Assembly: GCA_033064195.1 (NCBI GenBank) | Contig: JARBJD010000345.1 | Span: 1 to 64,000, forward strand | Direction of reading: 5' to 3' | DNA: 64,000 nt | Source of the DNA: Blattamonas nauphoetae | Taxonomy: Eukaryota > Preaxostyla > Oxymonadida | Shown: positions 15,272 through 53,578 of the stretch, in pieces | Numbering within the stretch: the stretch's first letter is position 1 | Layout of the letters: every line of letters begins with the position of its first letter | Notes under the pieces: model-generated | Databases searched by the model: none | The model's input: the letters and a program-made list of their open reading frames with translations, nothing else | Told to the model about the DNA's origin: nothing | Position numbers and translations under genes: made by a program

Positions 15272-15326
15272 GGGGACGACTATATCTCATCAAGCATTCC
15301 ATCTATATCTCATCAAGTTTTGATCA
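15272..15326 (+). repeat. MULE terminal inverted repeat, left
   Basis: This 55-bp arm begins GGGGACGACTATATC and contains two copies of CTATATCTCATCAAG. Confidence 0.85.
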
Positions 15327-19110: not shown

Positions 19111-19119
19111 CGCTTTCTG
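19111..19119 (+). repeat. 9-bp target-site duplication, left copy (second element)
   Basis: CGCTTTCTG lies within the RPSLS codons of the pseudokinase tail. The identical copy is at 19,789-19,797. Confidence 0.8.
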
Positions 19120-19788
19120 GGCATGTATTACCCCTGTAGGTAATCGGAACCCTGTAGGTAATCGAGCGAGTTTGTGCGAGAGAACCTGTCTGAGAGGGGG
19201 GATAATGGAGAATTACAAACTTTACTTTGCCTTGCATCCACTGATGATTTCTTTTAAACATCTATTCGGAGGAAATTGTGTGTTTTCCCCAACACTTTTG
19301 ATCGAACGCATCTTTCACGATCTATCAGGCAAATATGTTGAACATAAGGAGAAAAGAGAGAGAAAAGGTGAATATATGTTAACTGACATGGAAATAGTCT
19401 AAGTTGTGTTCATTTGAGTCGACAATCTCCATTTTTGTTGTTGTGGTCTTGATCAAGGATCGCGACCAAAAATGATTTTCACTACAATATGGAGTTGAAA
19501 ATTGATGATGATATGCATTAAAATGAGAATATGAAAGGAATAATGTCATCAAAGAGAGAAATTCAGTGTTTGATGGAATGTGGCACTTTTGAAGCAGTTT
19601 GAATCTTGTGTTGGTCTCGAGAATGTTTTGCGGAGCGAAATAAGTGGAGAACAGTGTTTCCGGTCATACCCTACAGAGTTCAAAAACATCCTACAGGGTT
19701 TCATTCATTACCTACAGGCTTCCTCTTCACACCCTACAGGGTTCCGATTACCTACAGGGTTCATTTTACCTACAGGGGTAATACATGC
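19120..19788. mobile_element. Short non-autonomous DNA transposon (669 bp) with CCTGTAGG arrays
   Basis: Inverted ends read GCATGTATTACCCC then TGTAGGTAA; the left end has one extra G. The right arm holds a run of about seven spaced AACCCTGTAGG/CTGTAGG units at 19,665-19,780, and the left arm holds two. These subterminal arrays look like repeated transposase sites. Identical 9-bp duplications flank the element. The interior is AT-rich with no convincing gene, so it is a MITE-like passenger. The superfamily is uncertain: the 9-bp duplication suits Mutator-like or Merlin-like elements. Confidence 0.75.
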
Positions 19789-28810: not shown

Positions 28811-28908
28811 TGCTATTTTCGGGACTTTTCCGGGACTGTGTCGGGTGACTCGGGATTCAAGGACTTCTTTTTGGGCTCAACAGATCACACCATCGTTGAA
28901 ACTTCTCA
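28811..28908. promoter_or_regulatory. Divergent promoter with CGGGACT repeats
   Basis: 98 bases separate the start codons of the NTPase gene (minus) and the beta-helix gene (plus). At 28,821-28,857 lie CGGGACT twice, then CGGGTGACT and CGGGATT, spaced 9-12 bases apart. They may be binding sites for a shared regulator; this is inference from position. Confidence 0.4.
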
Positions 28909-35361: not shown

Positions 35362-38300
35362 ATGATTTTACTACTCCTAGGCGCCTATATCTGTTGTTGC
35401 GACACCCTCGACGAGAGAAACCCATCACATCGTTCTTCATGGTCTCTTTCACGCAATCATCCATTCGATCTTCGTTCAACAGTTGCAGAACACATCTTAA
35501 GGCATTTGAAAACAGAAACTATCTCAGAAATCGATTTAGGAGGGTATTTCTCGTGCTCAGATTTTGAAATGGATCATGAGCTGATTTTATTCCGAGGGGC
35601 GGAAAACACCACCATTTTCACGGACTACAAAAGCGGGTCGGCCTCGAATCTCTTCAGAATGACCAATTCGACCACCAAATTCCACCAAATCTGTTTTAAC
35701 ATGATGAAAGGACAAGACCAAATGAGCCTATCACACCCATCAAATCACGTTCTCAACTTGGTCTCATGTGCTCAAATTGCCAACGCAATCTTCTCAGCGA
35801 ACAAATGTCAGTTTATATTCGACGGAACGACGAGCCTTTTCCTCCTCACGTCCCCATCAACCTCTGAGAGCTTCCAAGTGAACAGTGTCGTTCTCAGTTC
35901 CTGTCTTTTCGAAGTATTTGGTTACACAATGAGATATTTTTGCCAAATCGATCCAATTGCAGCAGGTCCGATCCACAACACCATTTCCATCACATCAAGT
36001 CATTTAAACGATCTCGCAATTGATTCACCATCAGGGCTTGCCGTCTCACCAATCAAAGATCCCAGAAATACCATCACCACAAGTCTGGTCAGTCTTCGAC
36101 TGAACAACCTCACGCGAAGTGAAAGGAATTGTTGTTTTGACGTTGATCTGAAGCCGCTCACCGAACGAGTGACCAACTGTGTTCTCGAAGGAGTGGTCGA
36201 TGGTCTGGAAGGGACGGTGACTGCTCCCCTCTCCACATCTCACTCTTTCCTCTGTTTGAATTCGTCATTCTCTCAAATCATGAACTCCGCCCAACACGAG
36301 CACAACACTTCAAACTTCACACACGTCGGGCAGACGTACAACGCTGACGTAGTCTCAGAACGATTCAACCTGACTCATCAAACCACGCCTGTCATCTTCA
36401 TCGGCTGCACAATCACCTCCACAAACCCACCCAAAAGCTTTATTTTCATCTCCATGACGAATCATTCAGAAGATCTTACGATCTCCAATTGCACCTTCAG
36501 CGTAACAACCACATCATCCATCGATGTTCGCATAGTTTATTTTCAGCCAGCTGTGGGGTCGTTCCCCACTCTCATTGTGGACAAACTGAAGGGTGAATAC
36601 AGCGCGACCGACAGTTCTCCCAATTCGCTGTCACTCATCCATGCCGCCCGATCTGTCACTGCCCACATCACAGGCTCGAACTTCAGTTCACAAGCTGACT
36701 CAAAAAGTTCGCGACCACTCCAATTCTCAGGCGGGACTTTCATTCTTCACATCTTCGGATGTGTCTTCTCAGATGCGATGACCGCTGGAGGTGGAGGAGT
36801 CATCGCCGTTGGGAATGGAGGCGAACTGATCATGTCTGATTGTCTGATGGAAGGTAATCAGGTCACGGGGAATGGAGGGTGTGTGTCTATCGGTCGACAG
36901 TGTGTCTCATTTCATCGCTGTGTGATGAGGAACAACAAAGCCACACGTGGTGGAGTACTCACGTCATCTGGGTTGACTCTGGGAGTGTGGGAGGACTGCG
37001 CCTTCGAAGCCAATGTCGCCACAGAGGGACAGCACTTCAGCGGGAACGATATGGTGAATAACGCTGGATTGAGTACTTACAACCCTGAGTTGATCATCGG
37101 CTGCACGTCGACATCAGCCTCTCCGAAGATCAGTTATTACACGTCTGCCACGTCAAATGGAGTCCATCCACACGAAGACATCATCTTTCCACATCCTTCC
37201 ACAAAATCCGAGTATGATCAGAAGCTGGCAGTGGATTTGGATGGAAGCGGAACAACGTGCTCAGATGAGATGCCGTGTCAGACGATCAGTTCGGCTTTCA
37301 CTATTTTAAGTCCAGCAGGTCGAAATCGGATTTTAGTTGGAACGGGAGCTTTCTCAGACTCTGCTCACGCTCTCTCCGGTTCCGTGGAGTTGGTCGGAAA
37401 TGGATGGATTCGCGATTCTTCATTCTTCACCACACTGACGACAGCAGGAATGAAAGTTGGAGGAGGAGGAAACATCACACTCCGGTCGATGACGCTCCTT
37501 CCTTCCACAGACACCACAGTTGTTGCTTCGATGGACGAAGAGGGCACACTTCGATTCTCGTTCATCGGAATTGATCTTATCTCGTCTCACGCAACTTCCT
37601 TGGTTTCCATCTCGAAGGGTATTACCACGCTCTTCCGCTGCTGGTTTGACCAAGTCACTCTGGCGAACTCAGCCTTCGTGTCAGTCTCTGGCTCTGCATC
37701 TCTAAATCTTCATGGCACTTATTTCATGTTGATCCGTCGAGAAAACGGAGATGGAGCGAGCTGCATCGATTCAGAGTCGACAGGTGCCATCTCATTCGAA
37801 ACATCTGACTTTGGGAATTGTTCGTCGTCAGGAAAGGCTGGAGTGCTCCATCTGAAAGGGAAGGATGGTGCTGGCTCCATCTCGTTCAAAAAGACGTATT
37901 TCTACAACAACGAAGCCGGACAGAGCTCGCTCACCACGAACGGTTCGTTGATCTTCGCCAACGACATCATTCTGGATGGAATTGCCACAAACCAGATTTC
38001 TGCAACATCCCTCCAGTCAATCAGCCATCAGATAAGCTTCATTCGCCTCGGGATCCCTGTTCGTCTGTCTCCTATCGCCCAGTTCGGCTATTCCGCTGAT
38101 GGGATTACATTCACACTCGCCGGAAAGTATTATCAGGGCATTCCGATCTCCCAATTCTCCTCAATCAAAATAATGACAGAGGATACATTCAAGTATTGCA
38201 CATCAGTTTCTCCGATCATGCCTCGGGTCACTCTGCTTCTCGACCCACTTCTCGCTGAGGACGTGGATGTCCATTGGAGAACAGCTGTTCTCCAACCATC

Positions 38301-41300
38301 AACCTCAGCAGAGACAATTGTGAAGGTCGGACAGAATGCTACATTTGGGATCAGGGAAGGGTCACTCACTTTCGTTGAGCTTCCCACTGTCGTTCCATTT
38401 GTCGTTCTACATTCAACAGGGCTTTTCGAACTTCGCTCCGAAACCTGGACGTTCACTTGCGACACCACTCACATCTCTGTTCCTCTGTTTTCGGTGTCAG
38501 CTGGACAGATTAGAATCGAAACCTGTGAGCTCCAGGCTGGTCTCTCGTTTCTGGGATATTCAATGATGGAAGCAACAGGAGGGACAATAAGACTCCTCCG
38601 CACCGCCTTCAAACGGATCACAACCACAGAAAACGGAAGTGTTGTTCATTCCACCTCCGCCACAGTCAACATCGACAGCTGCTCATTCGAAGAGTGCTCT
38701 GCGAAGAACGGGGGAGTAGTGTGGTTCGAAACCTCTGGATCACACTTCCTCCAAGTTTTGCACCCGCCGACATCTCCCTTCTCCGCCACATTTCTAAATT
38801 GTGGAGCGAGTGAGAAGGGAGGCGTTCTGTGCGTGGAAGGAACCACATCTCTCCCCAATCCCATCCGCTTCGCCACCAATTCAGTGAACCACGCTCGCTT
38901 TGCCGGAAGTTGGAGTGGGAGTGTTGGGAAGGATGTGTATGTCGGAAAGAGTGTGTTCGGATCGAAGCCCACATCGGACATTCTGAAGTTCGGAGGAGGA
39001 TCGTACAGCGACTGGCATCACGTTGAGATTGAGGGGCGAGGGGCAGATGAAGACGAACTGAAAGATATTGGATTTCTGATCCCTCTTCCGATTGTCTCTG
39101 TGAATGGGTCAGTGAAGGAACTGACAACAGGATTGAGTGGGAAGGACGAGGAAGCGTGTAAATGGACATCGTCGTTCTGTGCGACACTTGGATTTGGGAT
39201 TGGAATTCTGAAGTCGAAATACAATGGTGAGAACATTGAAATGGGAGTTCAGTTCGTGTGGAACATGACATACACTGAGAAGCCGATGATTGTTTCAGAC
39301 CAGAATGTGGTTCTGACAGGAACAACAGCGAAGGATCTGTCGAAGAGCAACACGACACGAACGATTGTGAAGATGGACACGTCCTCCACAGCCGGCTCTC
39401 CTCTTTTCACGATCACCAACCACGCCATCCTCTCCGTATCGAACATCGATTTCTTCCTCAAACCAGAAAACGGCCTGTTTGCGATGGATCCGACGGGTGA
39501 CACTTTGAAGATCGAGAATTGTGGGATGATCGCATCGTCTGGCTCGGTGTCGTCTGAAAGTGTGATGTCGGTGGCCGGAGGATCAGTTTGGATGAAAGAC
39601 ATCTCACTGAACACGTCTGCCACTGGAAGAAGCACCTTCGCCTCTCCACTGATTTATGTGAACTCTAAAGCAGGTCCCATCATCCTCCAAAGTATCTCTT
39701 TCTCGAACATTGCAATCTCTGACTCTTCTTCGATCGTCTCCATTGTCACTCAATTCGCAGTTGTGCTGACAGACGTCACCTTCGACGACTGCCTCGTGTC
39801 GTCCAACGACAGCCATCTCGTCTTTCTCGAAGGAACAGATTTCCTCAATCAGATCATCCCCTCCTGTTGGGAAGGATCGTTCTCTTCATCAACGTCACTC
39901 AAAGATTTCTGGGGGAAGGACTCGTCTCTGTCGTCGTCAGAAGATTGGAAAGAGTCATCGCTCCTGTTTTATCTCTTCCCACCTGAAACAGTCATTGTTC
40001 TGAACAAAGATGCAACGAATCCCAGTCATCATCCAAACTGTGGGTCAGTTCTTCTCTCCTGTCAGTCCCTCAACAGTGCTTTCTCCTCGCTGCGAGACAC
40101 AATTCGAGGTGTATCGATCGAAAGTGAGGCTGACCTGACAGAGAAGATTATCGTGACATCGTCGTGTTCTTTCATCGCCTCTTCTTCGATTCATGTCCTG
40201 AAAATGGCTGAAACAGGTTCGACTGAAGTGAATGGTCCTGGAGTCACGCTCTCCATCAACAAACTCGAAATCAAATGCCTTTCGTCGAGTTCAGTATCGT
40301 CACTTTTCTCGGTTATGTCTGGAACTCTGGAAATGGAGGGATGCGTGATTGGTTCATCGTCATCTCTGTCTCCTCTAAGACTCCCTTCATCAATGACCTC
40401 TCTCGTCGAAGTCGGTTCTTCTGGCACAGTCTCCTTCGTTGCTTCTTCCATCACTCATTCTGTGTTTACCAATCCATCAAAAGGAAGCAGCCTCATCGTT
40501 CAGAAAGGAGGCTCGATCACACTCGACACATCTTCGTTCATTTCGAATGTTCTCTCGAGTGGTATCGGAAGTCACGTATTGGTCTTCGGTGATTCTTTCC
40601 CGTCCATTGCCGAAAGTGAAGTGATGCAGCGTCTCAAACCAACCCTCCCAAGTTCTGGCTTCTTCTCGTCCGAAGAACGGAATCGGCTCGCTGGCTGTGT
40701 CGATGGGGAAGTTGATGGAATTCTCTTTGAATGGTATCCTGCCAACGTTGGAGAACAGCATGTTCGGACGGGAGGAGTGAACCATCTGAAGGGAGGACAC
40801 TCTGCTCTTCCTCAACTGACCATCAAGTTTGGCATTTCTCAGTTGGGTAGTGATGGGTCGATCATTCTTGACTCCTCTCTCTCATTTGGCGAAACAGTCG
40901 CTTTTCCAGACTCAGCCATCGAAATCACTACCAGTCCCGTTCAGAACGACCGAAAGGAGATTTTCGTTGGAAGCGGAGGGCACTTCTCGGTCGAGCATGG
41001 CCATCTCACCCTCGCTTCTCTTTCATTCTCCACAACAATCCCCGCCAGTTCGTTCATCGCTATCTCTAATTCCGGGTCGTTGTCCATTTCGACTTGCTCA
41101 TTCGTCGGTTTCTCCACTCTTTCGTCAGGACCTGTGCTGTCTGCTTCGCTTGGCTCAACAAACACTCTTTCCATCGTCAACACCGAGTTCTCAGATTGCA
41201 GCTCAGAGATGGATGGCGGTGTGATTGCATTGACACTTTCGCAATCCACAAAATCATCTCAACTCGAAATCAAGGCATCATTCTCATCGTGTTCATGTGG

Positions 41301-44300
41301 AGACACCAAACACGGAGAGTGGATCCATGTCGCTGGACATAACCTCGCCCGTCAAATTCTCCCATCCAACTGGGAAGGCCATCCTACCACTTTCGGAGAC
41401 GAAAACGAACATACTGTTTGGGGAACAGACTTGTCAGTCACTGGAACCTTCTTCGCCTCGTACACTCTTCTCGTCCATCTTTTGGAGCGCAAGGAGGAAA
41501 CAATTTTTGTGAACTCTCTCGGACAGGATGCGATTGGTTGTGGATCGACGAAATACCCGTGTAAGACAATCTCGTCGTCACTCAGCCATCTTCTGAATGG
41601 ATCCTCGTCGCAGCTCGCCCTTCAAAACTCGTCGGTACTCTCGTCCACAATCGAGAACAAATGGAATGACCTCCAGATCTGTGGAACCGTTGAAGAATGG
41701 CAAGATGTCGATGTGTCTGCCACTGGTCGCATCTCAGTACCAACTCTGCAACTGTCTCTCTCTTTCCTGTTCTTCACAACGAGCGAACCCTCTCTAGACC
41801 ATTCCCTCGTTTCGATCACTGGCACAGGCTCGCTCAAAGTTGGCTCCTGCTCATTCTCTTCCTTCCGCACCACTGGAAGTGGATCGATCGTGTCTGGCAC
41901 CCTCTCATCATCGTCGCTGCTCCATCTGACCAGCACTTCGTTCTCCACCTGCTCGGCCTCTGGAAATGGAGGAGTGATTTCGATCATTTGCGACGAAGCA
42001 GTGTCTTCGTCGTCGCTCATTTTGGATTGCTCGTTCGATGCTCTCTGCTCGTGTGGAATCGACTCGAAAGGCTATTGGGTGTTTCTGGACGGATTTGGTT
42101 TCGAGGATCTGATCTCTGCGCCGAATTGGTTGTCTGTCTGTTCGAGTCTGACGTCTCCGGAAAACGATTCGGTGCTTTACGGCATTGATCGCAAAGAGCC
42201 TGTAATCTCTTCCTTCCACTCGCTCTCGCTTCTCTACTATCTTCTTCCATTCCGCTCATCGACAGTCTTTGCTGGATCATCAGGACGAGACTCGAATGGA
42301 TGTGGACAGGAAGAAAGAATGTGTCGACGACTTGAAACAGCACACTCTCATCTGTCTGGAACCGCTGACTTCGATCTCTTCGTTGTCGGTTCTGCTTCTC
42401 TCACCACACCACTCATCTTCACTCCGAATGACCTCCAGCTGAGACCGAAATCAGGACGCGAGACGATCCACGTGGAAGAAGAAGGGAGATTCGAAGACGG
42501 GGACATGGCAGGGAACCACCTGCTGTCGATTCATCGGATTACGTTCAACCTCAACACTGCGACGTGCTCGACTCTGTTCAAAACAGGAGTGGGGCAGCTC
42601 GCTCTAACATCCTGCTCGTTTGAGAAGGACAGTCCATTCGATCTGGAAATTATGAATCTGGTTGGCGGAGAAGTGAGCATCGAAAACACAACATTCATCT
42701 CAGCATCATTCACCAGAACTCCCTTCGTGTTCTCGTCGTTCACCTCCGTCGAGTTTGAGAAAGTGAGATTCGAGCGCTGTTCCGGCGAAAGGTTTCTGGA
42801 AGCAAGTGGAAGTGGAGAGAACAGCAAACTGTCGTTTGACTCGTGCCATTTCTCAGGAAAGGTGGACATTGTTCAACCACACACCAATTCAGATGAGATC
42901 TGCACGTGGTCGACAGGAATGATCCGACTGACCAACACATCGACCACATTTCGGTCTGTGGACTTCACAAACGGGAGAGGAGGGATCAGACAGGAAGGGG
43001 GATGGTCGTACTTGACAAACACGACCTTCTCAAATCTGTCACCTTCTCATCACCTCTTCCCGTCTGCTCGACGAAATGTTTTCTGCTCTGGGAATGGGAC
43101 AGTTGTTGTGTATGGCGACAGTTCGGAAGGGAAGGACTTGTGGATTGGAGGGACAGACTGCTCGATCAATAACGGCACAGAAACACTCCTCTCTCCATTT
43201 TTCATCCCGACTCTTGATTCGTCTCAAAGCAAGTCAGAACAGAACAAGAAGAAGCAGACCTTCTCACTCCTGATTTCTGGTACAATGTTGATACCATGTG
43301 GACTGTCTCTGGAAATCGTCGAAGAGAAAGGATCAACCTCTGATCCTTCAGCAGTTCCTCTCCTTCTTTCCGAATCGACCACAACGTCATTCAACGAGAC
43401 CACAATCACACTCGAAGTGTCCCAATCCTCTCTCGAAAAAGCTCTGAATTCGTCGCTGGAGTGGAGTGGGCGATTGATGTTCGGAGTAGGAATGCGGACA
43501 GCAGACAAGTTCCGAGTGAAAGTGAGCCGAATTGAAGAGAAGAAGTCACAGGCGAAACAAGCCGTGAGTATCATCGTCCCGATCGCTGCTTCTCTTCTCG
43601 TCATGCTCTTCCTCCTCCTTCTCATTCTTCTCCTCGTCCGCCGCCATCGCAAGAAGACGAAAGAATCGCTGGCATCTCAGAAGGAACTTGACCACATTGA
43701 AGAAGACGGGGATGGAATCAAAATGGATGTATTCGGCGTCGACCTGCACGAGAAGTGGACTGGTGACATCATCAAACCCGATCAGTCCACTCGCTCCGGA
43801 ATCGAGACATTCAACGACGAGACAGTTCGAGAAGCAAGCGAGCCTTCAGAGCGTTCTTGTCCGAGCGACAGGAATGGAGTGGGTGGGCGAATGGTGGAAG
43901 CGATGAAGTGCGATGGAGAGTTCGCGACGAGTGTTGTTGCTCGGACTGACACGCTGTTTGATCGGCTTCATTCGGAATCGAAGAAAGAAATGAACAAGCG
44001 AGCGATTCTGGTGGAGCTAACGAAAGCGCTTCAGAAGCTGAGGATCACACTGCCTGAAGCAGAAGCACTGACTCACCTGTCTTCGCATTGGGTGATGTTC
44101 GACAAAGATGGGCAGATGTTGTTGCAGGTGAAACGGGAAAAAAACAAAATAGTTCAACCCCACCATTCTCACCACTCCCTCCAAAAACCGATCCTCCACC
44201 CTCCGCAGCAGGTTGGGTCATTCACCTCTTCTTTGAACTTGAACAACTCTTCTCCTCACCCATCCCAAAACCAGCCTCGGGAATCTTTTTTTCGCCTCGC

Positions 44301-44841
44301 CAACGAATCGGACGAGATGAGCTTCAACCTATCGGCGACTCAGACGAACGACAACTCGCCACAGACATCGCCAACCACAAGTGACAGACAAGATGCTCAC
44401 TTTGAGAACATCGCTCTTCGACACGGCTTCACTCAGCCTGTCACACAACCTGACTTCGACATGCCAACACCCCAATCGAACCCTCGAACTGACACAGCAT
44501 TCGAAGGACTTCGGTGGCAGGCACCAGAAGTGGTTGGGAGTCGTGTTGAGGTGGACAGGGAGAGGGCGGCTGTGTTCAGTCTGGGTCTGATCATGTGGGA
44601 GGTGGAGACAGAGGCGGTTCCGTTTGGAGAGATGGACGCAGTGAACGCGGCTCGACAGAACGAGACGGGGTGTCTTCCTCGAATGAACCTGATTTCGGAT
44701 CCGAAGGAACGAGATCTCATCCAGCAATGTCTTCAGACTGATCCGTCTTCTCGCCCCTCTCTCTCCTCGCTCCTCTCCACTCTTTCTGAACTTCCATTGA
44801 CATCTTCAGTTGTCCACAAGAACGATCCCCACATTTCATGA
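35362..44841 (+). CDS. Giant beta-helix receptor with membrane helix and pseudokinase tail
   Basis: The protein has 3,159 residues, taking the ATG at 35,362 (MILLLLGAYICCC, a signal peptide). A slightly longer frame starts only at GTG. Residues about 30-2,700 are repeated right-handed beta-helix modules. They are Ser/Thr/Asn-rich with many NxS/T sites and GGGV/GGV turns. New modules open with a paired-Cys motif: CSDEMPCQTIS near 37.26 kb, CGSVLLSCQSL near 40.04 kb, CGSTKYPCKTIS near 41.54 kb and CGQEERMCRRLE near 42.30 kb. A membrane helix (IIVPIAASLLVMLFLLLLIL) lies at about 2,735-2,757 with a basic RRHRKK stop. The cytosolic tail has LFDRLHSE, HLSSHWVMFDKDGQMLL in place of the HRD loop, then RWQAPEVVGS (APE), AVFSLGLIMWEVETEAVPFG and RPSLSSLL. 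There is no VAIK lysine, HRD or DFG, so it is a pseudokinase by sequence. Likely a surface adhesin or sensor; ligand unknown. Confidence 0.85.
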   Translation: MILLLLGAYICCCDTLDERNPSHRSSWSLSRNHPFDLRSTVAEHILRHLKTETISEIDLGGYFSCSDFEMDHELILFRGAENTTIFTDYKSGSASNLFRMTNSTTKFHQICFNMMKGQDQMSLSHPSNHVLNLVSCAQIANAIFSANKCQFIFDGTTSLFLLTSPSTSESFQVNSVVLSSCLFEVFGYTMRYFCQIDPIAAGPIHNTISITSSHLNDLAIDSPSGLAVSPIKDPRNTITTSLVSLRLNNLTRSERNCCFDVDLKPLTERVTNCVLEGVVDGLEGTVTAPLSTSHSFLCLNSSFSQIMNSAQHEHNTSNFTHVGQTYNADVVSERFNLTHQTTPVIFIGCTITSTNPPKSFIFISMTNHSEDLTISNCTFSVTTTSSIDVRIVYFQPAVGSFPTLIVDKLKGEYSATDSSPNSLSLIHAARSVTAHITGSNFSSQADSKSSRPLQFSGGTFILHIFGCVFSDAMTAGGGGVIAVGNGGELIMSDCLMEGNQVTGNGGCVSIGRQCVSFHRCVMRNNKATRGGVLTSSGLTLGVWEDCAFEANVATEGQHFSGNDMVNNAGLSTYNPELIIGCTSTSASPKISYYTSATSNGVHPHEDIIFPHPSTKSEYDQKLAVDLDGSGTTCSDEMPCQTISSAFTILSPAGRNRILVGTGAFSDSAHALSGSVELVGNGWIRDSSFFTTLTTAGMKVGGGGNITLRSMTLLPSTDTTVVASMDEEGTLRFSFIGIDLISSHATSLVSISKGITTLFRCWFDQVTLANSAFVSVSGSASLNLHGTYFMLIRRENGDGASCIDSESTGAISFETSDFGNCSSSGKAGVLHLKGKDGAGSISFKKTYFYNNEAGQSSLTTNGSLIFANDIILDGIATNQISATSLQSISHQISFIRLGIPVRLSPIAQFGYSADGITFTLAGKYYQGIPISQFSSIKIMTEDTFKYCTSVSPIMPRVTLLLDPLLAEDVDVHWRTAVLQPSTSAETIVKVGQNATFGIREGSLTFVELPTVVPFVVLHSTGLFELRSETWTFTCDTTHISVPLFSVSAGQIRIETCELQAGLSFLGYSMMEATGGTIRLLRTAFKRITTTENGSVVHSTSATVNIDSCSFEECSAKNGGVVWFETSGSHFLQVLHPPTSPFSATFLNCGASEKGGVLCVEGTTSLPNPIRFATNSVNHARFAGSWSGSVGKDVYVGKSVFGSKPTSDILKFGGGSYSDWHHVEIEGRGADEDELKDIGFLIPLPIVSVNGSVKELTTGLSGKDEEACKWTSSFCATLGFGIGILKSKYNGENIEMGVQFVWNMTYTEKPMIVSDQNVVLTGTTAKDLSKSNTTRTIVKMDTSSTAGSPLFTITNHAILSVSNIDFFLKPENGLFAMDPTGDTLKIENCGMIASSGSVSSESVMSVAGGSVWMKDISLNTSATGRSTFASPLIYVNSKAGPIILQSISFSNIAISDSSSIVSIVTQFAVVLTDVTFDDCLVSSNDSHLVFLEGTDFLNQIIPSCWEGSFSSSTSLKDFWGKDSSLSSSEDWKESSLLFYLFPPETVIVLNKDATNPSHHPNCGSVLLSCQSLNSAFSSLRDTIRGVSIESEADLTEKIIVTSSCSFIASSSIHVLKMAETGSTEVNGPGVTLSINKLEIKCLSSSSVSSLFSVMSGTLEMEGCVIGSSSSLSPLRLPSSMTSLVEVGSSGTVSFVASSITHSVFTNPSKGSSLIVQKGGSITLDTSSFISNVLSSGIGSHVLVFGDSFPSIAESEVMQRLKPTLPSSGFFSSEERNRLAGCVDGEVDGILFEWYPANVGEQHVRTGGVNHLKGGHSALPQLTIKFGISQLGSDGSIILDSSLSFGETVAFPDSAIEITTSPVQNDRKEIFVGSGGHFSVEHGHLTLASLSFSTTIPASSFIAISNSGSLSISTCSFVGFSTLSSGPVLSASLGSTNTLSIVNTEFSDCSSEMDGGVIALTLSQSTKSSQLEIKASFSSCSCGDTKHGEWIHVAGHNLARQILPSNWEGHPTTFGDENEHTVWGTDLSVTGTFFASYTLLVHLLERKEETIFVNSLGQDAIGCGSTKYPCKTISSSLSHLLNGSSSQLALQNSSVLSSTIENKWNDLQICGTVEEWQDVDVSATGRISVPTLQLSLSFLFFTTSEPSLDHSLVSITGTGSLKVGSCSFSSFRTTGSGSIVSGTLSSSSLLHLTSTSFSTCSASGNGGVISIICDEAVSSSSLILDCSFDALCSCGIDSKGYWVFLDGFGFEDLISAPNWLSVCSSLTSPENDSVLYGIDRKEPVISSFHSLSLLYYLLPFRSSTVFAGSSGRDSNGCGQEERMCRRLETAHSHLSGTADFDLFVVGSASLTTPLIFTPNDLQLRPKSGRETIHVEEEGRFEDGDMAGNHLLSIHRITFNLNTATCSTLFKTGVGQLALTSCSFEKDSPFDLEIMNLVGGEVSIENTTFISASFTRTPFVFSSFTSVEFEKVRFERCSGERFLEASGSGENSKLSFDSCHFSGKVDIVQPHTNSDEICTWSTGMIRLTNTSTTFRSVDFTNGRGGIRQEGGWSYLTNTTFSNLSPSHHLFPSARRNVFCSGNGTVVVYGDSSEGKDLWIGGTDCSINNGTETLLSPFFIPTLDSSQSKSEQNKKKQTFSLLISGTMLIPCGLSLEIVEEKGSTSDPSAVPLLLSESTTTSFNETTITLEVSQSSLEKALNSSLEWSGRLMFGVGMRTADKFRVKVSRIEEKKSQAKQAVSIIVPIAASLLVMLFLLLLILLLVRRHRKKTKESLASQKELDHIEEDGDGIKMDVFGVDLHEKWTGDIIKPDQSTRSGIETFNDETVREASEPSERSCPSDRNGVGGRMVEAMKCDGEFATSVVARTDTLFDRLHSESKKEMNKRAILVELTKALQKLRITLPEAEALTHLSSHWVMFDKDGQMLLQVKREKNKIVQPHHSHHSLQKPILHPPQQVGSFTSSLNLNNSSPHPSQNQPRESFFRLANESDEMSFNLSATQTNDNSPQTSPTTSDRQDAHFENIALRHGFTQPVTQPDFDMPTPQSNPRTDTAFEGLRWQAPEVVGSRVEVDRERAAVFSLGLIMWEVETEAVPFGEMDAVNAARQNETGCLPRMNLISDPKERDLIQQCLQTDPSSRPSLSSLLSTLSELPLTSSVVHKNDPHIS

Positions 44842-45704
44842 AATGCCCCCCCTTCCAACTGAACACGTCTCCAGTCCGTCGTTTGAGACTCTTCTCGCCA
44901 ATCAGGGAATTGTGACTGATCAAGCCAGCTGCCATCAACACTGTCTCGGACAATGTCACCAGTGCTGACACCGATCATCTCACATCACATCCAACTCGAG
45001 AGGTGGTCTTCGCTGATCCTAATGATTGGTTCACCACCACCCTCAACCCACATCACGATCTGTCTTTCGTTGGTTCAGAAACCATCCTCATCACCCTTCT
45101 ATTCGTTCCTGCCCACATCACACCGTTTACGAGGACCTCCCCCTTCTTCAGTGAAAACTCTTCCCTGCTGCTGGTTCCTTGATGGTCTGTCTCATTATTC
45201 GTCTTATTATCATTCAACATGCTTTTGTTGGTATCTTTGCTGTCTGTCTGATTTTCTCGGGATTCTCGTTGCTGTTGAATGTTCATCCGTTCATCTCACA
45301 AAACCGTCCCTTCGCACATCGTTCACGTGTCTTCTTTCTCACTCCACTCCATTTTTCTTCCGTGCCACTCTTCCTGTGCGTTTCTCAGACGGTCCATCGC
45401 TCCGAATCATGAAGCAATCCGTTCTTTTCGTCTTCTCGTTTCTTTGTCATCTCATAGTTCCCCGACCAAGCCGGACTTGTTCATCAAGTCGGACAACGGG
45501 TAGGTATGTCAAGGATACCTCCTTATTTGACTGTAAAGTTGATTGATAATCGCTTTACGGCTTCAACAAAGAGTTTGAGAACGATCAGACCATTCATTGT
45601 ATTTGTTCACTTCCCTCATCCATTTTTGCTATTCTCACACAATAGCCAATCGAGCAAAGAGGTGAAGTGATTAAATAACATTTGGAACTATTTAGATGTA
45701 TGTT
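44842..45704. other. Intergenic, no gene recognised
   Basis: A plus-strand frame of 197 codons at 44,953-45,546 is Ser/His/Pro-rich without motifs and is probably chance. Nothing else was seen. Confidence 0.45.
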
Positions 45705-46209
45705 CAGTTCATCCCCCCATCGAGGATGAGAATGGATCCATCGAAGAAGAAGTTGACGACGGAGAGTTTTGTGGGTGCCAATTGATTGTTTTCAGCCTCT
45801 CGCAACCAATTGAAGCGGATTCAGACGACTTGTATCATTTTTGCTTGGAATGGAGAATGTGAATGAGATTCTGTTTGCCTCATCTCGGATCTACTGTGAA
45901 AAAGTGAGGAAACCTTAAAATTGCAATCATAAGGCAGTTTGAGGAACACACCATCATTCCAAGATCCAAGTAGTTGGGATGAATGCCATTGGAGATCTTG
46001 TTGAGCATGCCATTCCGGAAGTGAACAGATTCCATCTTATTGAGAGGAATGAGAGATACAAACATCCAAAGACCTTTATCCTGCAGAAAGGTCGTCGGAT
46101 GCGTGATTCTTGCGGGTCGGAGAAGACCTTCGTAGAATGAAAACAAGAACATTTTCAACCTCAAAATTGGTCTGTCAAGGTGCACATTATGAATATAGCG
46201 TGGAGACAC
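45705..46209 (-). pseudogene. Small unrecognised gene or gene remnant
   Basis: The minus strand begins near 46,209, or at a second ATG near 46,155 (MFLFSFYEGLLRPARITHPT). It reads as coding to LDLGMM. After a possible intron of about 61 bases (GTGTGTTCC...ACAGTAG) comes IRDEANRISFTFSIPSKND, then, in another frame, REAENNQLAPTKLSVVNFFF to a stop near 45,705. At least one frame change is needed, so it is a remnant or has an unresolved intron. No family is recognised. It is divergent from the small gene at 46,223. Confidence 0.35.
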
Positions 46210-46222
46210 ATCACTAACATCA

Positions 46223-46573
46223 ATGCTGATGTGAGTTTAGACCTCCGAGAACTGTGATGCATGTCCATTCAGGTTCGGATTTGAAAAAGCACCCATTGAT
46301 CGTGTCTTTCTTCTCAGAAATACCAATTTTTACTCAACACTCGCATATCGAAATGAAGAAATTATCATGCAACTAGAAAGTATTGTTGTCCTACCTGATG
46401 AACAAGTCCGGCCTAATCGGAGGACTATCACCCGTTTTCTGAAGATGACTCCCCCTTCTCTTGAATCGATTGGGAATGTTGTCGAAATCATGGTTCACCA
46501 AGACTCAATGGTGTGGAGAGGATGCTCGCACGTATCGGTGTTGAAGGGCAACGAGATTATCTCTGAAATTTGA
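46223..46573 (+). CDS. Small two-exon gene, unknown function
   Basis: Exon 1 is only eight bases (46,223-46,230). The intron 46,231-46,272 is GTGAGTTTAG...CCATTCAG. Exon 2 is 46,273-46,573. Together they make 309 bases, giving 102 residues that start MLMFGFEKAPIDRVFLLRNT and end KGNEIISEI. The frame upstream of the internal ATG at 46,367 is open and coding-like, which supports the intron. No motif is recognised. The start is inferred from the splice frame; a longer 5' part cannot be excluded. Confidence 0.4.
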
Positions 46574-47212
46574 ATAAAAAGAGGATTACTTTTGAATCAT
46601 TAAGACAATTCGGGTTATCAGTGATTCTGAGTCGAACTGGCGACCAGATGAAGGAAAGGTGATGTTCAAACATGGAGAGATTCGCTCATCAACGATGAGA
46701 GCTACTAGACACAGAAGCTTTCAGTTTCAACAGACAGCAAAATCTGGAAAGAGAGAAAGATGATGATGTGCGACGTGCCATCAAGGAACGCAGAAAGGAG
46801 AGGGAAGCAAGATATCAGAAGAAGGAAGAAAGACTCCTTGTTTGGATGAATGAAGAACGCCAGGGTGAGCAATGAGACACTGTTGATGACGTGTGAGAAA
46901 GAAAGACAACGAAGGGGAATATGCGAGAAATCTAAGAATGACAAAAGATGAACGATGACAGTGAAGGGGATGTTGAAACGAAGAATGAGCTGGTGTGGTG
47001 CAGGCGGAATTTCTGAAAAACAAGAAAGAGCTGACGTGGAAAAGAGTCGAATGAGAGATCATATGATGTGTGACTCGTCTCGATCGACGAAGACGACGAT
47101 GAGGTCCCAGATCGCTTTGTTGGGTTGTGAGTATGTTCCATTGCGTGAAGTGGCGCTGTGCAGGAAGATGAATTGATGGTGATTCTGACACAACTGTCTG
47201 ACTATTGTGTCA
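46574..47212. other. Mostly non-coding; coiled-coil fragment at 46.73-46.88 kb
   Basis: A plus-strand frame at about 46,731-46,875 reads NLEREKDDDVRRAIKERRK... and ends at a possible splice donor (CAG/GTGAGC). It looks like one exon of a coiled-coil protein or a relic. The rest shows no gene. Confidence 0.3.
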
Positions 47213-50200
47213 TCAGAAGTCGCAGCCGAGGGGGTCGTCCTGCAGGATTGTTCCTGTCGTGAACAGACCATCCTCACCCAGTTCTTTCAACACTTCCGCC
47301 AGAGTCGGTCGGCCAGTCGGATCCAAATCCAGACACTTCTCAATCAGCTCAACCAGCTTCAGAGACGATATCTTCGTCATCGGCAGCTGGCCTCCGCATC
47401 CCAACTGTCGCTGAGCATTCGCTGCATCCAGCTCCCCGAAGGGTACAAGACCAGTCTCTAATTCCCACAAGATCAGGCCAAGACTAAAAACTGCCCCGTG
47501 GTCGTGTTTCTTGTTTGATTCTTCGTCCATTAGTTCTGGTGCAATCCATCGCTGGCCTTCCACTCCCGCCGAGTCCTGTTTTGTGTTTCTCGTTTGGGAC
47601 GCTGCCACACTCTCCCCTCTCCTCGCTTCTCCAATCTGAAGATACATCTGGTTCGTCCAGTCAAACACAATCCAGTGAGTCGACACATTTCGAAGACCAA
47701 GACTTGTCGGATCTTTCTGCGCCAAGTTCAGAAGGCCTCGTGTTAGCTGTTGAGCAATCGTCGCTCGCTCTGCTCCAATCATTCTGTTCTCGCCGGAGTG
47801 AAGTCGACGATACAGTGTGTCTTTCCAGTTCACAAACACTTTCTCACTCACATCCGAACAGTTCACCGCTTCGAACTTTCCATCGTTCTCAACAGGTTTG
47901 TCTCTGTCCATTGGTTGCTGCTGTGTGTGTGATGTTGAGCAGCCACCTTCGTCGAACTCGTTCGGATTCACTTTTTGAAGATTTGCTGTCGTGTTCACGA
48001 GTGTCGGAGCGAATGAGTCCTCAACCTCCAATTTCTCCGCAGGGAGCTGTTCGTCCATTTCTGTCTTCGTTGTCAATTGTTCATTCTCTTTCTTCTGTTT
48101 GTTCCTTCGTCGAACAAGGATAACGATCAGAACGATGAAGAAGAGCAGAAGCAGAGCGCTGCTGGTAATGATCACAGGAATCAACCACTTTCGAACTGAT
48201 GCGAATTGCGCTTTTCGTTCGTCACTTGCGCTTCGCTTCAGGAGCGTTGAGTCTGTTTTGAATCCATCCCCAAACACGATCCGACAGCGCCATTCCATTT
48301 TCGAGTCCAGCGAAGACAGCGCAGAAGAGGCGAGTTGGGTGGAGAAGGACGATTCTGTCCAGTTCATCGTGTTGGCTGGTGAGAGAGGAATCTGAATTGA
48401 TCCGTTTTCACCCTTCTTCTCATCCAGCGAGAACACATTCAAACGAAGATTGCAGTCGAGGAGAAGCGAGCCAGAGAGTGTTAGAGTGTACATTTGGCTG
48501 GTCTTGTTGAAAGAGGCAGGAGATTCTGACGATGTCAGAGTTGGAATGAAAAAGACAGCGAATGGCTCAATCACTTGCGAAGAGAAGCGACATTCCGAAT
48601 CAAGCGAGATCCACGCTGATGGGTGATCCTTCGATCCATCTCCACCATTCAGCGAGTCCACCACAACTTCGCCTCCTTGGCACCGAATGTTCTTTCGAGC
48701 TGATGGGAATTGAGAACTCTCCCCAATGTTGCTCGAGAATACGGACGAGTGAATAGTGGTGTGCGTGTTGGACAGGAAGAGTGCACCTTGTGAGAGATGA
48801 GAGAAGTCTGAATTTTTGATGGAAACAGTGGAGTCCACGATCGTGATCACGCCTGTTGTCCATTCACAAAGAGACTCATGTTCATTGTGAGAAGCTTGCG
48901 TTGGAATAATTGGTCCTTCGAACGAGCATGATTGGAGACTCAGTGTGGTGATGTTCGAGCATTCCAGGAAGACCAAGTCAGAAGTGTTGGAGACTTGGAG
49001 TTGGATGAGTGTGGCGGAGCGGAGGTCGGACAGGCGGATGGGAGTCGAGGCGAAGGAGATGTTAGCGCTAACAAGCGAGTTCACAGAGACTGTCCCTTTC
49101 TCACAATCCATCAGTGTTCCGACATTGTGTGATGACGAGATTGTGATTGTTTGGAGTGTTAGAATCGAATTCACACTTTTGAAGAGCGGTGTGGTCTGAT
49201 CAGCCAACACCGAGATCTCCACCATCGAAAGGTTCATGTGCCCAAACAGCACAACCAGTGCCGCTGAGCTCCTTCCACCCTCCTTCAACACAACTGTCAC
49301 ACTTTCAAACTGAACCGTGTCGCCTGTCTCTTCACGCAGACATCCCGACGAAGACAGCACAATCGACGACATCACAGGCAATCCCTTCACAGTCACTCCT
49401 CCCATCTCAACCTCATTCCCAACGGATACTTCCCCCATCACGTGCAGATGGTTCGTCGGCACTTTCGATGCTCGTGTCAGCGAATGTTCCAATGTTCGAC
49501 ACCAAACAGAGTTGTGCCCACATTTCTCCAAGTCAAGTCCATCACTCGCCACTCCAATCCCCCCACTCCCAGCAAGCAGATAGAATAGAAGAGAGGCATT
49601 GAGCGAAGTGGCGTGGTCAACACTCCACAGCCACTCATACGACACTCCAGTTTCGAACGATCCAGCAAAGCGAGTATCTTCATACGCAATCCATTCGTCG
49701 AGATTGTTTCCTTCAACCCAAACAAATGCTCCATTTGAGTTCGATGACGAAGAGCTGGAATACTTCAGATTGCGGAGACAGAAGGCGGGAATCTTCGACT
49801 GATCGCTGATTGAGGTGAATGAGATGAAGAAGCCATTCGCAACTCCATTCTGGGTTGTCACATCACTCAGCTCAACAGCATCTATTTCCAATTTCATTCC
49901 TTCAACCATCTCGACCTCCAACACACTCCCATTTCCATCTGAACGTGTGATCTGATGGAACTTGGTCGAAGTGAGCGAGAGAGAGCCAGCTGCGAATTCG
50001 ATGATAGCTGTTGTGAGAGTGAGAGACGAGAACGAGCAACCGTCAATGATAACGATGCAGCAGGCAGATGAGAGCGAGATGAATGGAGCAGATCGAGGAT
50101 GACCAGTGAAGGAGAGATCGAGGAGAGTGAGCGATTTCTGGCCAATAGTAACCGAAGCAGCAGATGTCGTTGCGATCGTCTGTTGAGATGTGGAAGACGT

Positions 50201-53200
50201 CAGGATCGTGTCAGCAGCGATGGTCAATTCTTCATTCAGAGTTACGGCAGAATCGATGACAAACGTGTTGTTCTGGTTTGGATGAGAAAGCGTCCTGTTG
50301 AATGATGAGCAAGGGAGCAATTCTCGCCCACAAAGAGCGTGGTCTTCTCCATCTGCGTGAATGTGAGTCGATTCGCAAGTGGAGGTGTGAGGATACCAGT
50401 AGAACAGAAGCGATCCTTCTGATGATGTCACAGCGTCAACTCCAAACCATTTCTTCTTTTCTAACCTCGAATACGGCGTTGTTTGTGTCAATGGTTTGAG
50501 AGAGGCGAGAGATGAGGAGAGGAATGTCACAAGATCAGCTGAAGTGATTGAGATCCAGTCACCTTCGCTCTGAGTGCTCGAACATGAAACGAACCTGATT
50601 GGGTCTGTCATCGAGTATGATCCACCATTCAATGTCACTGCCAATGCACCTCCTCTTACACGTGACAAACAGGATGAGAAGTTCGCGTCTTTGAAGGTGA
50701 GGGAGTTCCCGGAATTCAGAGAGGAGGAGAAGATCGATCCATCGCCATCTTTCACAAGAGAAGAGAACGAGCATCCACTCACAACAATCGATCCACTTCC
50801 AGAGATCTCCAGAAGTGATGTCGAGCGCTCAACGGATTGCCCGTCGAACGAGAGAGATGTGAGTGTGAGTGTGAATGCAGAGATAGCGAATCTTCCCTCA
50901 GTTCCAGTTGTGATTGAAGCTGTTGCTTCATTCGGGCAGATTTCGATTGCATTTGTTGAAAACGAGAGAGGTGTGGTGAGTGTTGTAGACGTTGTCACAA
51001 TCAGCTTGTGCGAACCTGTTCCTGACAGATGAGATGCTCCAACCTCAAGCGACTTGCATTCCCATTCCAATCGTCCACATCCATCCTCATCTCGTCCATC
51101 CGGACCAGCTGTGATTGTCTGATTGCGGTACGGGATGAGATAGTACAGAAGAGTCATCGAGCGATATTTCGACCCTTCTAGCTCTGAATTGTCTGTCCCC
51201 CACAACAAGTTGTCGTCGGTTGGTGTGGTGAGCGAGGACACTGTCGACAACCAGTTCTCTCTTTTGAGGAGGGTGAGGAAGGTAGAACCTTCCACAAACA
51301 CCCACTGTCCTTTCTGCTCAGATCCACATGAGCACGACGTGAATGTTGACTTGACCACGAGCGATGAGGAAGCAACTACAGCAGCACATGACACAGAAAT
51401 CGCACCTCCATTCCCACCCGATGAGCAAGAAGAGAAAACACAGTCTTCCACTGACAGTGTTGACTCGGTGGTCAGTGTCGCAAGAAGAACTCCCCCATTT
51501 CCAGTCGATCTCAGAGAGCTGAAACGGCACGAGGAGAGTTTTGTGTGTTGAGTGGCTGAGCCATCCATCACAACGAACGACCCACCAGCTGCACTCGTCT
51601 GCACAAAATTCGAAAAGTTCGATGAAGACACGACGAATGACGACTCGCCAGCCATTCGGATGAAGCTGAAGGAGCTAACAGGAAGCGATGACAGTGTGAT
51701 GTTTCTGACAATGAGTGAGGCCGTGGAGAGAGAAATGAAATCCGATTTCAGAGCTGTCGAATTCGGAGTGATCTTGATCGAATCAATAATCACTTTTGAG
51801 TGACCTGCGAACGCTCCAAAGCTGATCCCTTTGGCAGAAAAGTCAAATGAATGCGAAGAGATCGCCAAACTGGCAGCACGACTGAATTGGACGAATGGCG
51901 ACTGGCTGGAGGCAGTGACGGAATAATACTGAGTGGCAGTCCCAGCGTAGATGATGTTTGAAGTGTCAGATGACGTGAGGGTGTCGTTTGAGCGAGATGA
52001 CGATGGAAAATAAAGTTGTTGGTTCGTACAGGTCGCAAAGAAGTCCAAGTTCGATGAGCTATAATGGAAAAATCGAATGTCATTCTTGATGGTGCCATTA
52101 CAGCTTGAATAGATGAAGTTTCCTCCTTCAAACTTGTTGCCGTGCATCAACAATGATTTCGGATCCTTTACAGAAAGTTCCAACGTCGCTCGGGTGAGTT
52201 CTGGTTGGATGTGAGTATTGCCAGTGAAAAGATTGTTGCTGATTTCGGCTGTTGAGAAAACCGCCAGAAAGCATGCTCTCTGTTTCGCCACATTGCTTTC
52301 GTAGCGGTTTCCTGTGTTGATAATCGTTCCGGTTGAAGTATCTGTGTGAAAAGTAGGCTCGCACTCAGCTGTGCAGCTAGTGCAATTATTGTTGGTGAAG
52401 GACAACAGATATTTGTATGGATGGATTGCACAGGCACCACCCCAAAAACCACGACATGACACGAACTTGGTGTTGGAGATCGATGTCGTTGTTTGATTGA
52501 GATACACCCCTCCACCTGCCATGTGGGATTCAAGAACATAGCAGGAGAGGAAGGAGGACGACGTGATCGTGACAGTCTGTCCAACCACATACGACGAAAT
52601 GGCGCCTCCATGCTCAGTCGTTGAGAAGCAGTTCGTAAAGGCGCATCGGTCGAAAAGAACATCTGCTACTGTGGGTTTAATTCTTGCTGTCTTCTCTCCT
52701 GTGTAGGTTGTCGGGGCATTTGAGCGGTCGGTGTGAGCGAAGGTGTTGTTCGAGAAGACAAATGATCCAGGCGTGTTGATCGATCGGGTGATCGTTCCAT
52801 CGTGAACACAACACACACTGTCCGTTTCACATCCAATCATGCGAGTCTTTTGGCTTGTTTCGGAGGGCGGTTGTGTTTGGTCAGCGGTTGACATAGAAAT
52901 GTTTGTGAACGCACTCCATGCAATTTGAGTGGATAAAGTGGACGAAGATGCAACGAGAGGTTCAGACGATCCCAAAATCATGTCGTTTATTGATGTCGAA
53001 GCCAGTGTCACGGTACCACTGTTCTCCTCGTTCCTAACAAGACTATCAATGGTTGAATGTGAGGTTCGGTGCTTGAAGGTGATTGAGGAGAGAGTAATGT
53101 GAGAGTTGAGGGAAATAACGAGCGAGTTTGGTGAACTCATCCAAAGTGTCACGGTGTCCAGAAAGATGTCCGAGTTCTTCGCAGATATCGCCTCTTTGGT

Positions 53201-53578
53201 TGGTATGATTGATGTGGATTCAATCTTCATGGTTGTGTTCGTGACTCGGAACATTTCTTGTCCAATTCTGTCAACTCGCGAAACAAGTCGGCTGCTTTTT
53301 GTTCCCACAAGATGAAGCGGGGAGAGCACGCAAATCGATGCACATGAATAGGAGTGGTCACTCAAAAGCACATATCCTGCATTCTGATTGCTTTGGTGCG
53401 GAATCAAAAGTTCTTCGATGGTTAATTCGACCCTATCATCAATTTGTTCTCCCAAATCGTAGTGATTTGAATAATTGTGTCTGGATGGGTCAATATTGTT
53501 GGCTGAGAGCAGGTTTGTGGCGGTCGTGAGGAAGAGAGTCAGGTATGTGAATGTTCTCATCTTACAGCATCTCATCAT
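47213..53578 (-). CDS. Beta-helix receptor with membrane helix and pseudokinase tail
   Basis: The protein has 2,121 residues in one uninterrupted frame. The signal peptide is MMRCCKMRTFTYLTLFLTT. The ectodomain of about 1,780 residues is beta-helix with GGAIS and GGGVYL turns. Paired-Cys module starts are CGRLEWECKSLE, CGRELLPCSSFN and CGHNSVWCRTLE. A membrane helix (WLIPVIITSSALLLLFFIVL) lies at about residue 1,800, followed by RRRNKQKK. The tail has TLYRRLHSGE, VSTHWIVFDWTNQMYLQI, RWIAPELMDEE, AVFSLGLILWELETGLVPFGELDAANAQRQ and RPTLAEVLKELGE. The catalytic Asp, DFG and ATP-binding Lys are absent. It is a paralogue of the 35.4-44.8 kb gene with the same domain order and about two thirds its length. 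The two genes face each other 3' to 3'. Confidence 0.85.
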   Translation of the reverse strand: MMRCCKMRTFTYLTLFLTTATNLLSANNIDPSRHNYSNHYDLGEQIDDRVELTIEELLIPHQSNQNAGYVLLSDHSYSCASICVLSPLHLVGTKSSRLVSRVDRIGQEMFRVTNTTMKIESTSIIPTKEAISAKNSDIFLDTVTLWMSSPNSLVISLNSHITLSSITFKHRTSHSTIDSLVRNEENSGTVTLASTSINDMILGSSEPLVASSSTLSTQIAWSAFTNISMSTADQTQPPSETSQKTRMIGCETDSVCCVHDGTITRSINTPGSFVFSNNTFAHTDRSNAPTTYTGEKTARIKPTVADVLFDRCAFTNCFSTTEHGGAISSYVVGQTVTITSSSFLSCYVLESHMAGGGVYLNQTTTSISNTKFVSCRGFWGGACAIHPYKYLLSFTNNNCTSCTAECEPTFHTDTSTGTIINTGNRYESNVAKQRACFLAVFSTAEISNNLFTGNTHIQPELTRATLELSVKDPKSLLMHGNKFEGGNFIYSSCNGTIKNDIRFFHYSSSNLDFFATCTNQQLYFPSSSRSNDTLTSSDTSNIIYAGTATQYYSVTASSQSPFVQFSRAASLAISSHSFDFSAKGISFGAFAGHSKVIIDSIKITPNSTALKSDFISLSTASLIVRNITLSSLPVSSFSFIRMAGESSFVVSSSNFSNFVQTSAAGGSFVVMDGSATQHTKLSSCRFSSLRSTGNGGVLLATLTTESTLSVEDCVFSSCSSGGNGGAISVSCAAVVASSSLVVKSTFTSCSCGSEQKGQWVFVEGSTFLTLLKRENWLSTVSSLTTPTDDNLLWGTDNSELEGSKYRSMTLLYYLIPYRNQTITAGPDGRDEDGCGRLEWECKSLEVGASHLSGTGSHKLIVTTSTTLTTPLSFSTNAIEICPNEATASITTGTEGRFAISAFTLTLTSLSFDGQSVERSTSLLEISGSGSIVVSGCSFSSLVKDGDGSIFSSSLNSGNSLTFKDANFSSCLSRVRGGALAVTLNGGSYSMTDPIRFVSCSSTQSEGDWISITSADLVTFLSSSLASLKPLTQTTPYSRLEKKKWFGVDAVTSSEGSLLFYWYPHTSTCESTHIHADGEDHALCGRELLPCSSFNRTLSHPNQNNTFVIDSAVTLNEELTIAADTILTSSTSQQTIATTSAASVTIGQKSLTLLDLSFTGHPRSAPFISLSSACCIVIIDGCSFSSLTLTTAIIEFAAGSLSLTSTKFHQITRSDGNGSVLEVEMVEGMKLEIDAVELSDVTTQNGVANGFFISFTSISDQSKIPAFCLRNLKYSSSSSSNSNGAFVWVEGNNLDEWIAYEDTRFAGSFETGVSYEWLWSVDHATSLNASLLFYLLAGSGGIGVASDGLDLEKCGHNSVWCRTLEHSLTRASKVPTNHLHVMGEVSVGNEVEMGGVTVKGLPVMSSIVLSSSGCLREETGDTVQFESVTVVLKEGGRSSAALVVLFGHMNLSMVEISVLADQTTPLFKSVNSILTLQTITISSSHNVGTLMDCEKGTVSVNSLVSANISFASTPIRLSDLRSATLIQLQVSNTSDLVFLECSNITTLSLQSCSFEGPIIPTQASHNEHESLCEWTTGVITIVDSTVSIKNSDFSHLSQGALFLSNTHTTIHSSVFSSNIGESSQFPSARKNIRCQGGEVVVDSLNGGDGSKDHPSAWISLDSECRFSSQVIEPFAVFFIPTLTSSESPASFNKTSQMYTLTLSGSLLLDCNLRLNVFSLDEKKGENGSIQIPLSPANTMNWTESSFSTQLASSALSSLDSKMEWRCRIVFGDGFKTDSTLLKRSASDERKAQFASVRKWLIPVIITSSALLLLFFIVLIVILVRRRNKQKKENEQLTTKTEMDEQLPAEKLEVEDSFAPTLVNTTANLQKVNPNEFDEGGCSTSHTQQQPMDRDKPVENDGKFEAVNCSDVSEKVFVNWKDTLYRRLHSGENRMIGAERATIAQQLTRGLLNLAQKDPTSLGLRNVSTHWIVFDWTNQMYLQIGEARRGESVAASQTRNTKQDSAGVEGQRWIAPELMDEESNKKHDHGAVFSLGLILWELETGLVPFGELDAANAQRQLGCGGQLPMTKISSLKLVELIEKCLDLDPTGRPTLAEVLKELGEDGLFTTGTILQDDPLGCDF

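Follow-up and report, generated by a model that had tools for sequence, protein, structure and literature searches.

Trichomonad Pmp and BspA proteins form large families, and Pmps of Trichomonas are described as having FxxN and GGA[I/L/V] motifs, a membrane helix, and a tail on the cytoplasmic side (PMC6701047). In Entamoeba histolytica, a gut-protist family of transmembrane kinases unites an extracellular domain, a membrane segment, and a kinase-type tail; passages of PMC2880585 link members to proliferation and, citing others, to erythrophagocytosis, and term some of them pseudokinases. In the oxymonad Monocercomonoides exilis, proteins labeled "protein tyrosine kinases" (PTKs) are listed, in a section of PMC8767320, among that genome's largest families and overlap unclassified repeats. 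Here we analyze a 64,000-nucleotide stretch of the oxymonad Blattamonas nauphoetae (assembly GCA_033064195.1, contig JARBJD010000345.1, positions 1 to 64,000 of the forward strand), referred to as the window. A first-pass annotation of the window had proposed a putative receptor family whose members run from a signal peptide through a repeated beta-helix, a single membrane helix, and a basic stop to a degenerate kinase C-terminal lobe (C-lobe). Our results support that interpretation, although the observation behind it is confirmed only in part, and they place the family beside two known kinds of system, the receptor pseudokinases and the polymorphic repeat-rich surface families. Its C-lobe tails set it apart from the Trichomonas Pmps, whose tails bear endocytic motifs and whose description does not use the word "kinase" in its main text (PMC6701047). 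It also differs from the E. histolytica family as portrayed in passages of PMC2880585, where one recombinant kinase domain is active and pseudokinases arise by truncation or stop codons and not as a conserved inactive half-domain.

Two genes in the window are intact. Gene 1 (35362..44841, plus strand) encodes 3,159 residues from the Met at 35362, within an open reading frame (ORF) of 3,205 residues from stop to stop (35224-44841). Gene 2 (47213..53578, minus strand) encodes 2,121 residues from the Met at 53578, within an ORF of 2,136 residues (47213-53623), and the two genes are oriented tail to tail. Both frames are open, and coordinates and lengths agree with the first-pass annotation. Hydropathy analysis placed one strong membrane helix in each protein, as proposed: at 43582..43651 (plus) in gene 1, with a Kyte-Doolittle value of 3.31 at ORF residue 2787, and at 48107..48175 (minus) in gene 2, with 3.12 at ORF residue 1817. 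The basic stop is likewise present, as RRHRKK right after the first helix and as basic residues next to the second. Gene 1 further has a beta-helix-type ectodomain and a signal peptide-like start (8-mer hydropathy maximum of 2.88, above the cut-off of 2.0); gene 2 shares this architecture, with a weaker start that is considered below. No protein identical to that of gene 2 was found among the database matches listed, the best being 82-83% identical, so gene 2 may have no matching public gene model.

The tails are about 300 residues long and hold a kinase C-lobe. In gene 1 this region covers 43948..44793 (plus; end approximate), from DTLFDRLH on, with a long insert ahead of RWQAPE, and the Pfam PK_Tyr_Ser-Thr profile (PF07714) matched it at profile positions 166-258 of 258 only (E 3.4e-8). 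The same profile matched gene 2 at positions 151-258 only (E 2e-11). AlphaFold predicted ORF residues 1911-2118 of gene 2 (47270..47893, minus) to form a two-strand beta4-beta5 hairpin followed by a C-lobe of the tyrosine kinase-like (TKL) type, and Foldseek, VIA, and profile comparison with the PDB (best E 3.3e-15) pointed the same way. The degenerate C-lobe of the earlier proposal thus stands both in the C-lobe-only Pfam matches and in the model, where the tail does fold as one. Residues 1-64 of the tail model had a predicted local distance difference test (pLDDT) score below 50, the fold beginning with the hairpin. One VIA row aligned model residues 81-284 with BRAF 510-721; the other BRAF rows start at model residues 62-76 and BRAF 447-471, so a few residues do align with the N-terminal lobe (N-lobe). 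The tail model contains neither a glycine loop nor a VAIK lysine region. Among the PDB matches of the tail were the pseudokinases ILK and MLKL and the receptor PTK7. These are inactive kinase folds that act through protein contacts, are encoded by one or a few genes each, and retain the N-lobe. Unlike them, the oxymonad tails keep only beta4-beta5 and the C-lobe, in hundreds of copies.

We examined this loss across a Blattamonas set of 122 proteins chosen by likeness to gene 2: the two window genes plus the 120 listed of its 148 relatives, all 120 of them from B. nauphoetae. Omitting P0120, which has no helix at our cut-off, left 121 tails for alignment. The HRD aspartate and the helix-F aspartate were present in 0 of 121 and the catalytic-loop Asn in 8. 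By contrast, all 121 tails kept three residues of RWxAPE (Arg, Pro, and Glu), two of VFxLG (Phe and Gly), the LWE Glu, and the RP Arg. A DFG string occurred in 5/121 tails and an HxDxxxxN-like string in one, within a different-looking stretch; VAIK-like strings (1/121) and GxGxxG (11/121) were counted as strings, not placed in the alignment. Catalytic loss is uniform across the set, and the structural core is retained. The C-lobe fold together with a TKL-type WxAPE shows that the tails belong by descent to the TKL group of the protein kinase superfamily. With the catalytic residues and most of the N-lobe gone, they cannot phosphorylate substrates through the conventional kinase mechanism.

M. 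exilis shows this architecture and these losses too. A search with MONOS_4133 returned 84 rows, 83 from M. exilis (query included) and 1 from Blattamonas, and this set was thus defined by similarity to a single M. exilis query. Its members match the ectodomain, the membrane helix, and the C-lobe, and one is named "putative Protein tyrosine and serine/threonine kinase." The last 400 residues contained an HRD string in 0/83 and an HxDxxxxN-like string in 1/83. Residues could be counted in 57 of the 83, the other 26 having no clear helix or a tail of at most 300 residues: the helix-F Asp and the catalytic-loop Asn were each found in 0/57, the HRD Asp in 1/57, and the APE Glu in 57/57. In most tails of both genera, LxxLS[PS]H replaces HRDLKPxN. 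Judging from names and abundance in the relevant section of PMC8767320, the M. exilis PTKs are apparently the same family.

That label implies catalysis, and the Pfam PK_Tyr_Ser-Thr matches fit it, so that the proteins could be taken for active protein (tyrosine) kinases (label from a section of PMC8767320). The tails examined here lack the means for catalysis in both genera, the HRD and helix-F aspartates being lost (but for the HRD Asp of one M. exilis tail) and the N-lobe motifs missing from the model. We consider active kinases extremely improbable and reject them: on the present evidence the tails are inactive as kinases. The HRD string was absent from the 121 tails and from the 30 genomic loci sampled below, a sample that does not disprove full-kinase versions of the receptor; the two kinase ORFs inspected (L003 and L004) read as ordinary cytoplasmic kinases.

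Because M. exilis shares both architecture and losses, the inactive tail is probably older than the split between the two genera. A FastTree phylogeny built on 142 columns of 178 tails separates the genera, MONOS_10987 excepted, at a single branch (support 1.0, length 1.68), a division that the way both sets were selected may sharpen. On the simplest reading of these sequences, most duplications, or homogenization, would post-date the split and start from already inactive ancestors. MONOS_10987 (P0130) is the sole M. exilis tail on the Blattamonas side and may mark a second, older subfamily.

On the other side of the membrane, AlphaFold modeled the part of the gene 2 ectodomain nearest the membrane (ORF residues 1085-1805; 48209..50371, minus) as a right-handed beta-helix like those of tailspikes and polysaccharide lyases. 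The parallel coil expected of the proposed beta-helix ectodomain was therefore recovered, and VIA comparison of the model gave clear matches. The motif-bearing ectodomains of Trichomonas Pmps are beta-helical in nature as well. Next to the membrane, the strand pattern of gene 2 perhaps indicates a beta-sandwich. The two structure predictions used alignments of 56 and 48 sequences.

The family is very large. The first-pass annotation had suggested counting members per genome, and a 35-base degenerate signature of FxLGLxxWExET, allowing at most one mismatch, occurred at 727 places in the 88.3-Mb, 837-contig assembly (reversed control, 1), a count that takes in relics and misses members with an altered motif. 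Since the exact signature peptide was found in 90/122 proteins, the genome perhaps holds about 700 to 1,000 tails, relics included. By hydropathy, a single helix lies within the final 700 residues of 121/122 proteins, with no other from residue 60 up to that stretch, and at least 4 Lys/Arg occur in the 12 residues after the helix in 121/121. Hydropathy alone gave signal peptide-like starts in 48/122, compared with 388/3,162 internal Met controls; N-terminal truncation may affect many of the gene models. Names in public annotation vary: P0042 is called "large repetitive protein," P0046 "Fe-hydrogenase, simple," and P0071 "Titin like protein." P0046, which also carries the iron hydrogenase family PF02906, may derive from a fused model.

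An alternative is that these are repeats in decay, or selfish sequence, with no function. The window does contain relics, the so-called kinases of M. exilis overlap unclassified repeats (a section of PMC8767320), and 5 of 30 signature places, hand-picked one per contig from about 100 listed of the 727, were broken or incomplete: L044, L052, and L068 had no in-frame helix, L057 no RWxAPE, and L054 neither by our cut-offs. In the remaining 25/30 (24/28, plus L056 scored later), RWxAPE and a membrane helix share an open frame. In addition, 69 of the 71 best-scoring matches to a 630-residue query covering the membrane-proximal region and tail, gene 2 included, had no internal stop, and the C-lobe dN/dS values given below are low. 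A functionless family is thus very improbable, and we reject a mere pseudogene or repeat family.

The ratio of nonsynonymous to synonymous substitution rates (dN/dS) was calculated by NG86 for gene 2 and four close paralogues that lie across about 350 kb of the 809-kb contig C334 and are 81-82% identical over the 630-residue query. The C-lobe gave 0.20-0.39 (10 pairs) and the helix plus juxtamembrane region 0.09-0.37 (five paralogues); ectodomain values were at most 0.47 in the comparisons made. The C-lobe is under purifying selection in this paralogue group. This result bears on the view that the proteins are adhesins or coat proteins whose tails serve only folding, sorting, or endocytosis, with no signal passed. 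Their outline does resemble that of Trichomonas Pmps, in which sections of PMC6701047 recognize a repeat-motif ectodomain, one helix, and a tail with endocytic motifs; the ectodomain is the bulk of each oxymonad protein, and the N-termini are the most divergent part. A folded C-lobe, purifying selection, and positions invariant in 121/121 tails exceed what a sorting motif needs, and we regard the adhesin view as rather unlikely, although it deserves more weight than any other rival.

The N-terminal ectodomains and the tails appear to have different histories. In four of the six pairs that include the N-terminal ectodomain, the synonymous rate (dS) of the N-terminal ectodomain was 1.8-3.2 (saturated at the top) versus 0.09-0.26 for the C-lobe, which suggests that N-termini have been exchanged or tails homogenized; in the remaining two pairs the N-terminal value was 0.34-0.42. 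Among 109 long proteins (5,886 pairs), all pairs matched in the tail and the membrane-proximal 500 residues and 2,366 in the first 500, and the nearest relative by N-terminus was also the nearest by tail in 40/108. Mosaic N-termini, hundreds of copies, and relics adjoining intact genes might be expected of an antigenic-variation coat, of which one or a few members are expressed at once to evade recognition and to which the tail is incidental. Ectodomain dN/dS values no higher than 0.47 are unlike strong diversifying selection, and the host is an insect, without adaptive immunity of the vertebrate kind; such a coat is improbable.

We favor instead, with fair but incomplete confidence, a surface recognition repertoire with beta-helix outside and a shared C-lobe docking tail inside. 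Members of this very large oxymonad family would be single-pass membrane proteins, most likely on the cell surface. Outside, a chain of right-handed beta-helix modules would probably bind glycans of gut bacteria or of the host surface, a ligand class suggested by the company the ectodomain fold keeps and by the gut habitat. Inside would lie a TKL-derived C-lobe in which the fold-stabilizing residues survive but the catalytic ones, and most of the N-lobe, do not. Binding by, or clustering of, varied ectodomains would then present one conserved C-lobe surface to a common cytoplasmic partner. With the catalytic parts gone, these proteins probably signal by docking other proteins and not by phosphorylation. 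A candidate docking face runs from helix F to helix G (VPFGExDAxNAxRQ), a stretch that is strongly conserved in Blattamonas and, from kinase structures, presumably exposed. Docking might couple recognition to uptake, adhesion, or signaling, and the repertoire would have diversified as genes duplicated and N-terminal ectodomains were swapped over comparatively uniform tails. Surface location, ligand class, partner, and downstream effect are all inferred. A further step, which we offer only tentatively, is that some 700 to 1,000 receptors with swapped N-termini feed one pathway through the half-kinase docking tail, an innate-like recognition that discriminates gut bacteria for uptake or attachment.

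Several observations, the five failed places among them, weigh against a recognition repertoire. By hydropathy, the signal peptide that opened the proposed order is supported in gene 1 and not in gene 2, whose start looks signal-like by eye and reached an 8-mer maximum of only 1.79 against the cut-off of 2.0, failing a second hydropathy test as well; our estimate rests on helix, tail, and copy number and is unmoved by this. The Pfam scan detected no beta-helix family in either intact gene. For the ectodomain, Foldseek found only 6 matches at E <= 0.001, and TM-scores were low (0.12-0.29 in the eight rows listed first), which bending of several solenoids relative to one another might explain; a beta-helix fold in common does not prove glycan binding. 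Conservation from helix F to helix G could serve folding instead of docking, and in M. exilis this stretch of the tail is different (IPFGEYEAEVAGQKI), which makes it uncertain that the two genera share a partner. As for mosaicism, dS values above about 2 are saturated, truncated gene models may account for some of the N-terminal differences, and the nearest relative by membrane-proximal ectodomain was the nearest by tail in 67/109, indicating that mosaicism is weaker near the membrane.

If a recognition repertoire is correct, the "tyrosine kinases" counted among the largest gene families of one oxymonad genome would be a set of kinase-dead receptors, and oxymonad kinome counts would change. 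To our knowledge it would rank among the largest pseudokinase families. It would also amount to a natural experiment in which two genera have retained hundreds of copies of a kinase C-lobe for docking, and would offer a testable molecular basis for bacterial recognition by gut flagellates that lack mitochondria. The novelty of the half-kinase receptor description is uncertain. The literature searched gave no account of these proteins as kinase-dead half-kinase receptors, although the M. exilis genome paper of 2019 (msz147), outside that literature, may contain one. Nothing in it joined a right-handed beta helix and a pseudokinase in a transmembrane protein, and no title on metamonad pseudokinases, on expanded receptor pseudokinase families of protists, or on Monocercomonoides kinases and surface proteins concerned this family. 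The 2023 Blattamonas genome paper uses "kinase" twice, neither passage concerning the beta-helix/C-lobe family (PMC10703272).

Broken relatives surround the intact genes. Three exact instances of the C-lobe DNA signature lie in the window: one in each intact gene and one in a broken copy. The latter, described earlier as a decayed gene of the same order, keeps a helix and C-lobe tail at 18087..19139 (plus; PF07714 E 5e-10, family tblastn matches, signature at 18927). A beta-helix fragment at 14603..15346 (plus; Pfam Beta_helix PF13229 E 5.3e-8) probably belongs to it and has weak blastx matches to family ectodomains (best E 1.8e-6). No family match was found between 15346 and 18087 and no signal peptide by eye, so that helix, C-lobe, and a piece of beta-helix are the parts of the claimed order that this copy retains.

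The two further ectodomain relics that had been noticed were confirmed by tblastn (28873-33752 and fragments within 54160-57039, both plus). The first, in three frames at 28873..34790, has a signal peptide-like start by hydropathy and matches P0077, P0106, P0021, and others; family matches extend to 33752, the remainder being an open frame at 33255-34790, and neither a tail match (tblastn) nor a strong membrane helix (hydropathy) was detected. At 30446-33346 it contains repeats of about 100 residues with PPRI... starts, which by eye look IPT- or immunoglobulin (Ig)-like and drew no Pfam hit at E <= 0.1. Some family members may combine beta-helix with IPT/Ig-like domains. The second relic consists of three short fragments (54160-54666, 55838-56215, and 56602-57039, plus), with tblastn matches three to four family members deep.

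Elsewhere in the window, Rfam and tRNA scans found nothing. The minus strand at 23673-27611 holds an open frame of 1,312 residues with a period-189 tandem repeat at 24963-25309 and no Pfam match above the cut-off. Five long overlapping frames occupy 8349-13044; four of them were scanned, none with a Pfam hit at E <= 0.01. Within 8001-12000, two 2-kb blocks have a G+C content of 54-56%, compared with 37-50% elsewhere, and the plus strand there is C-rich.

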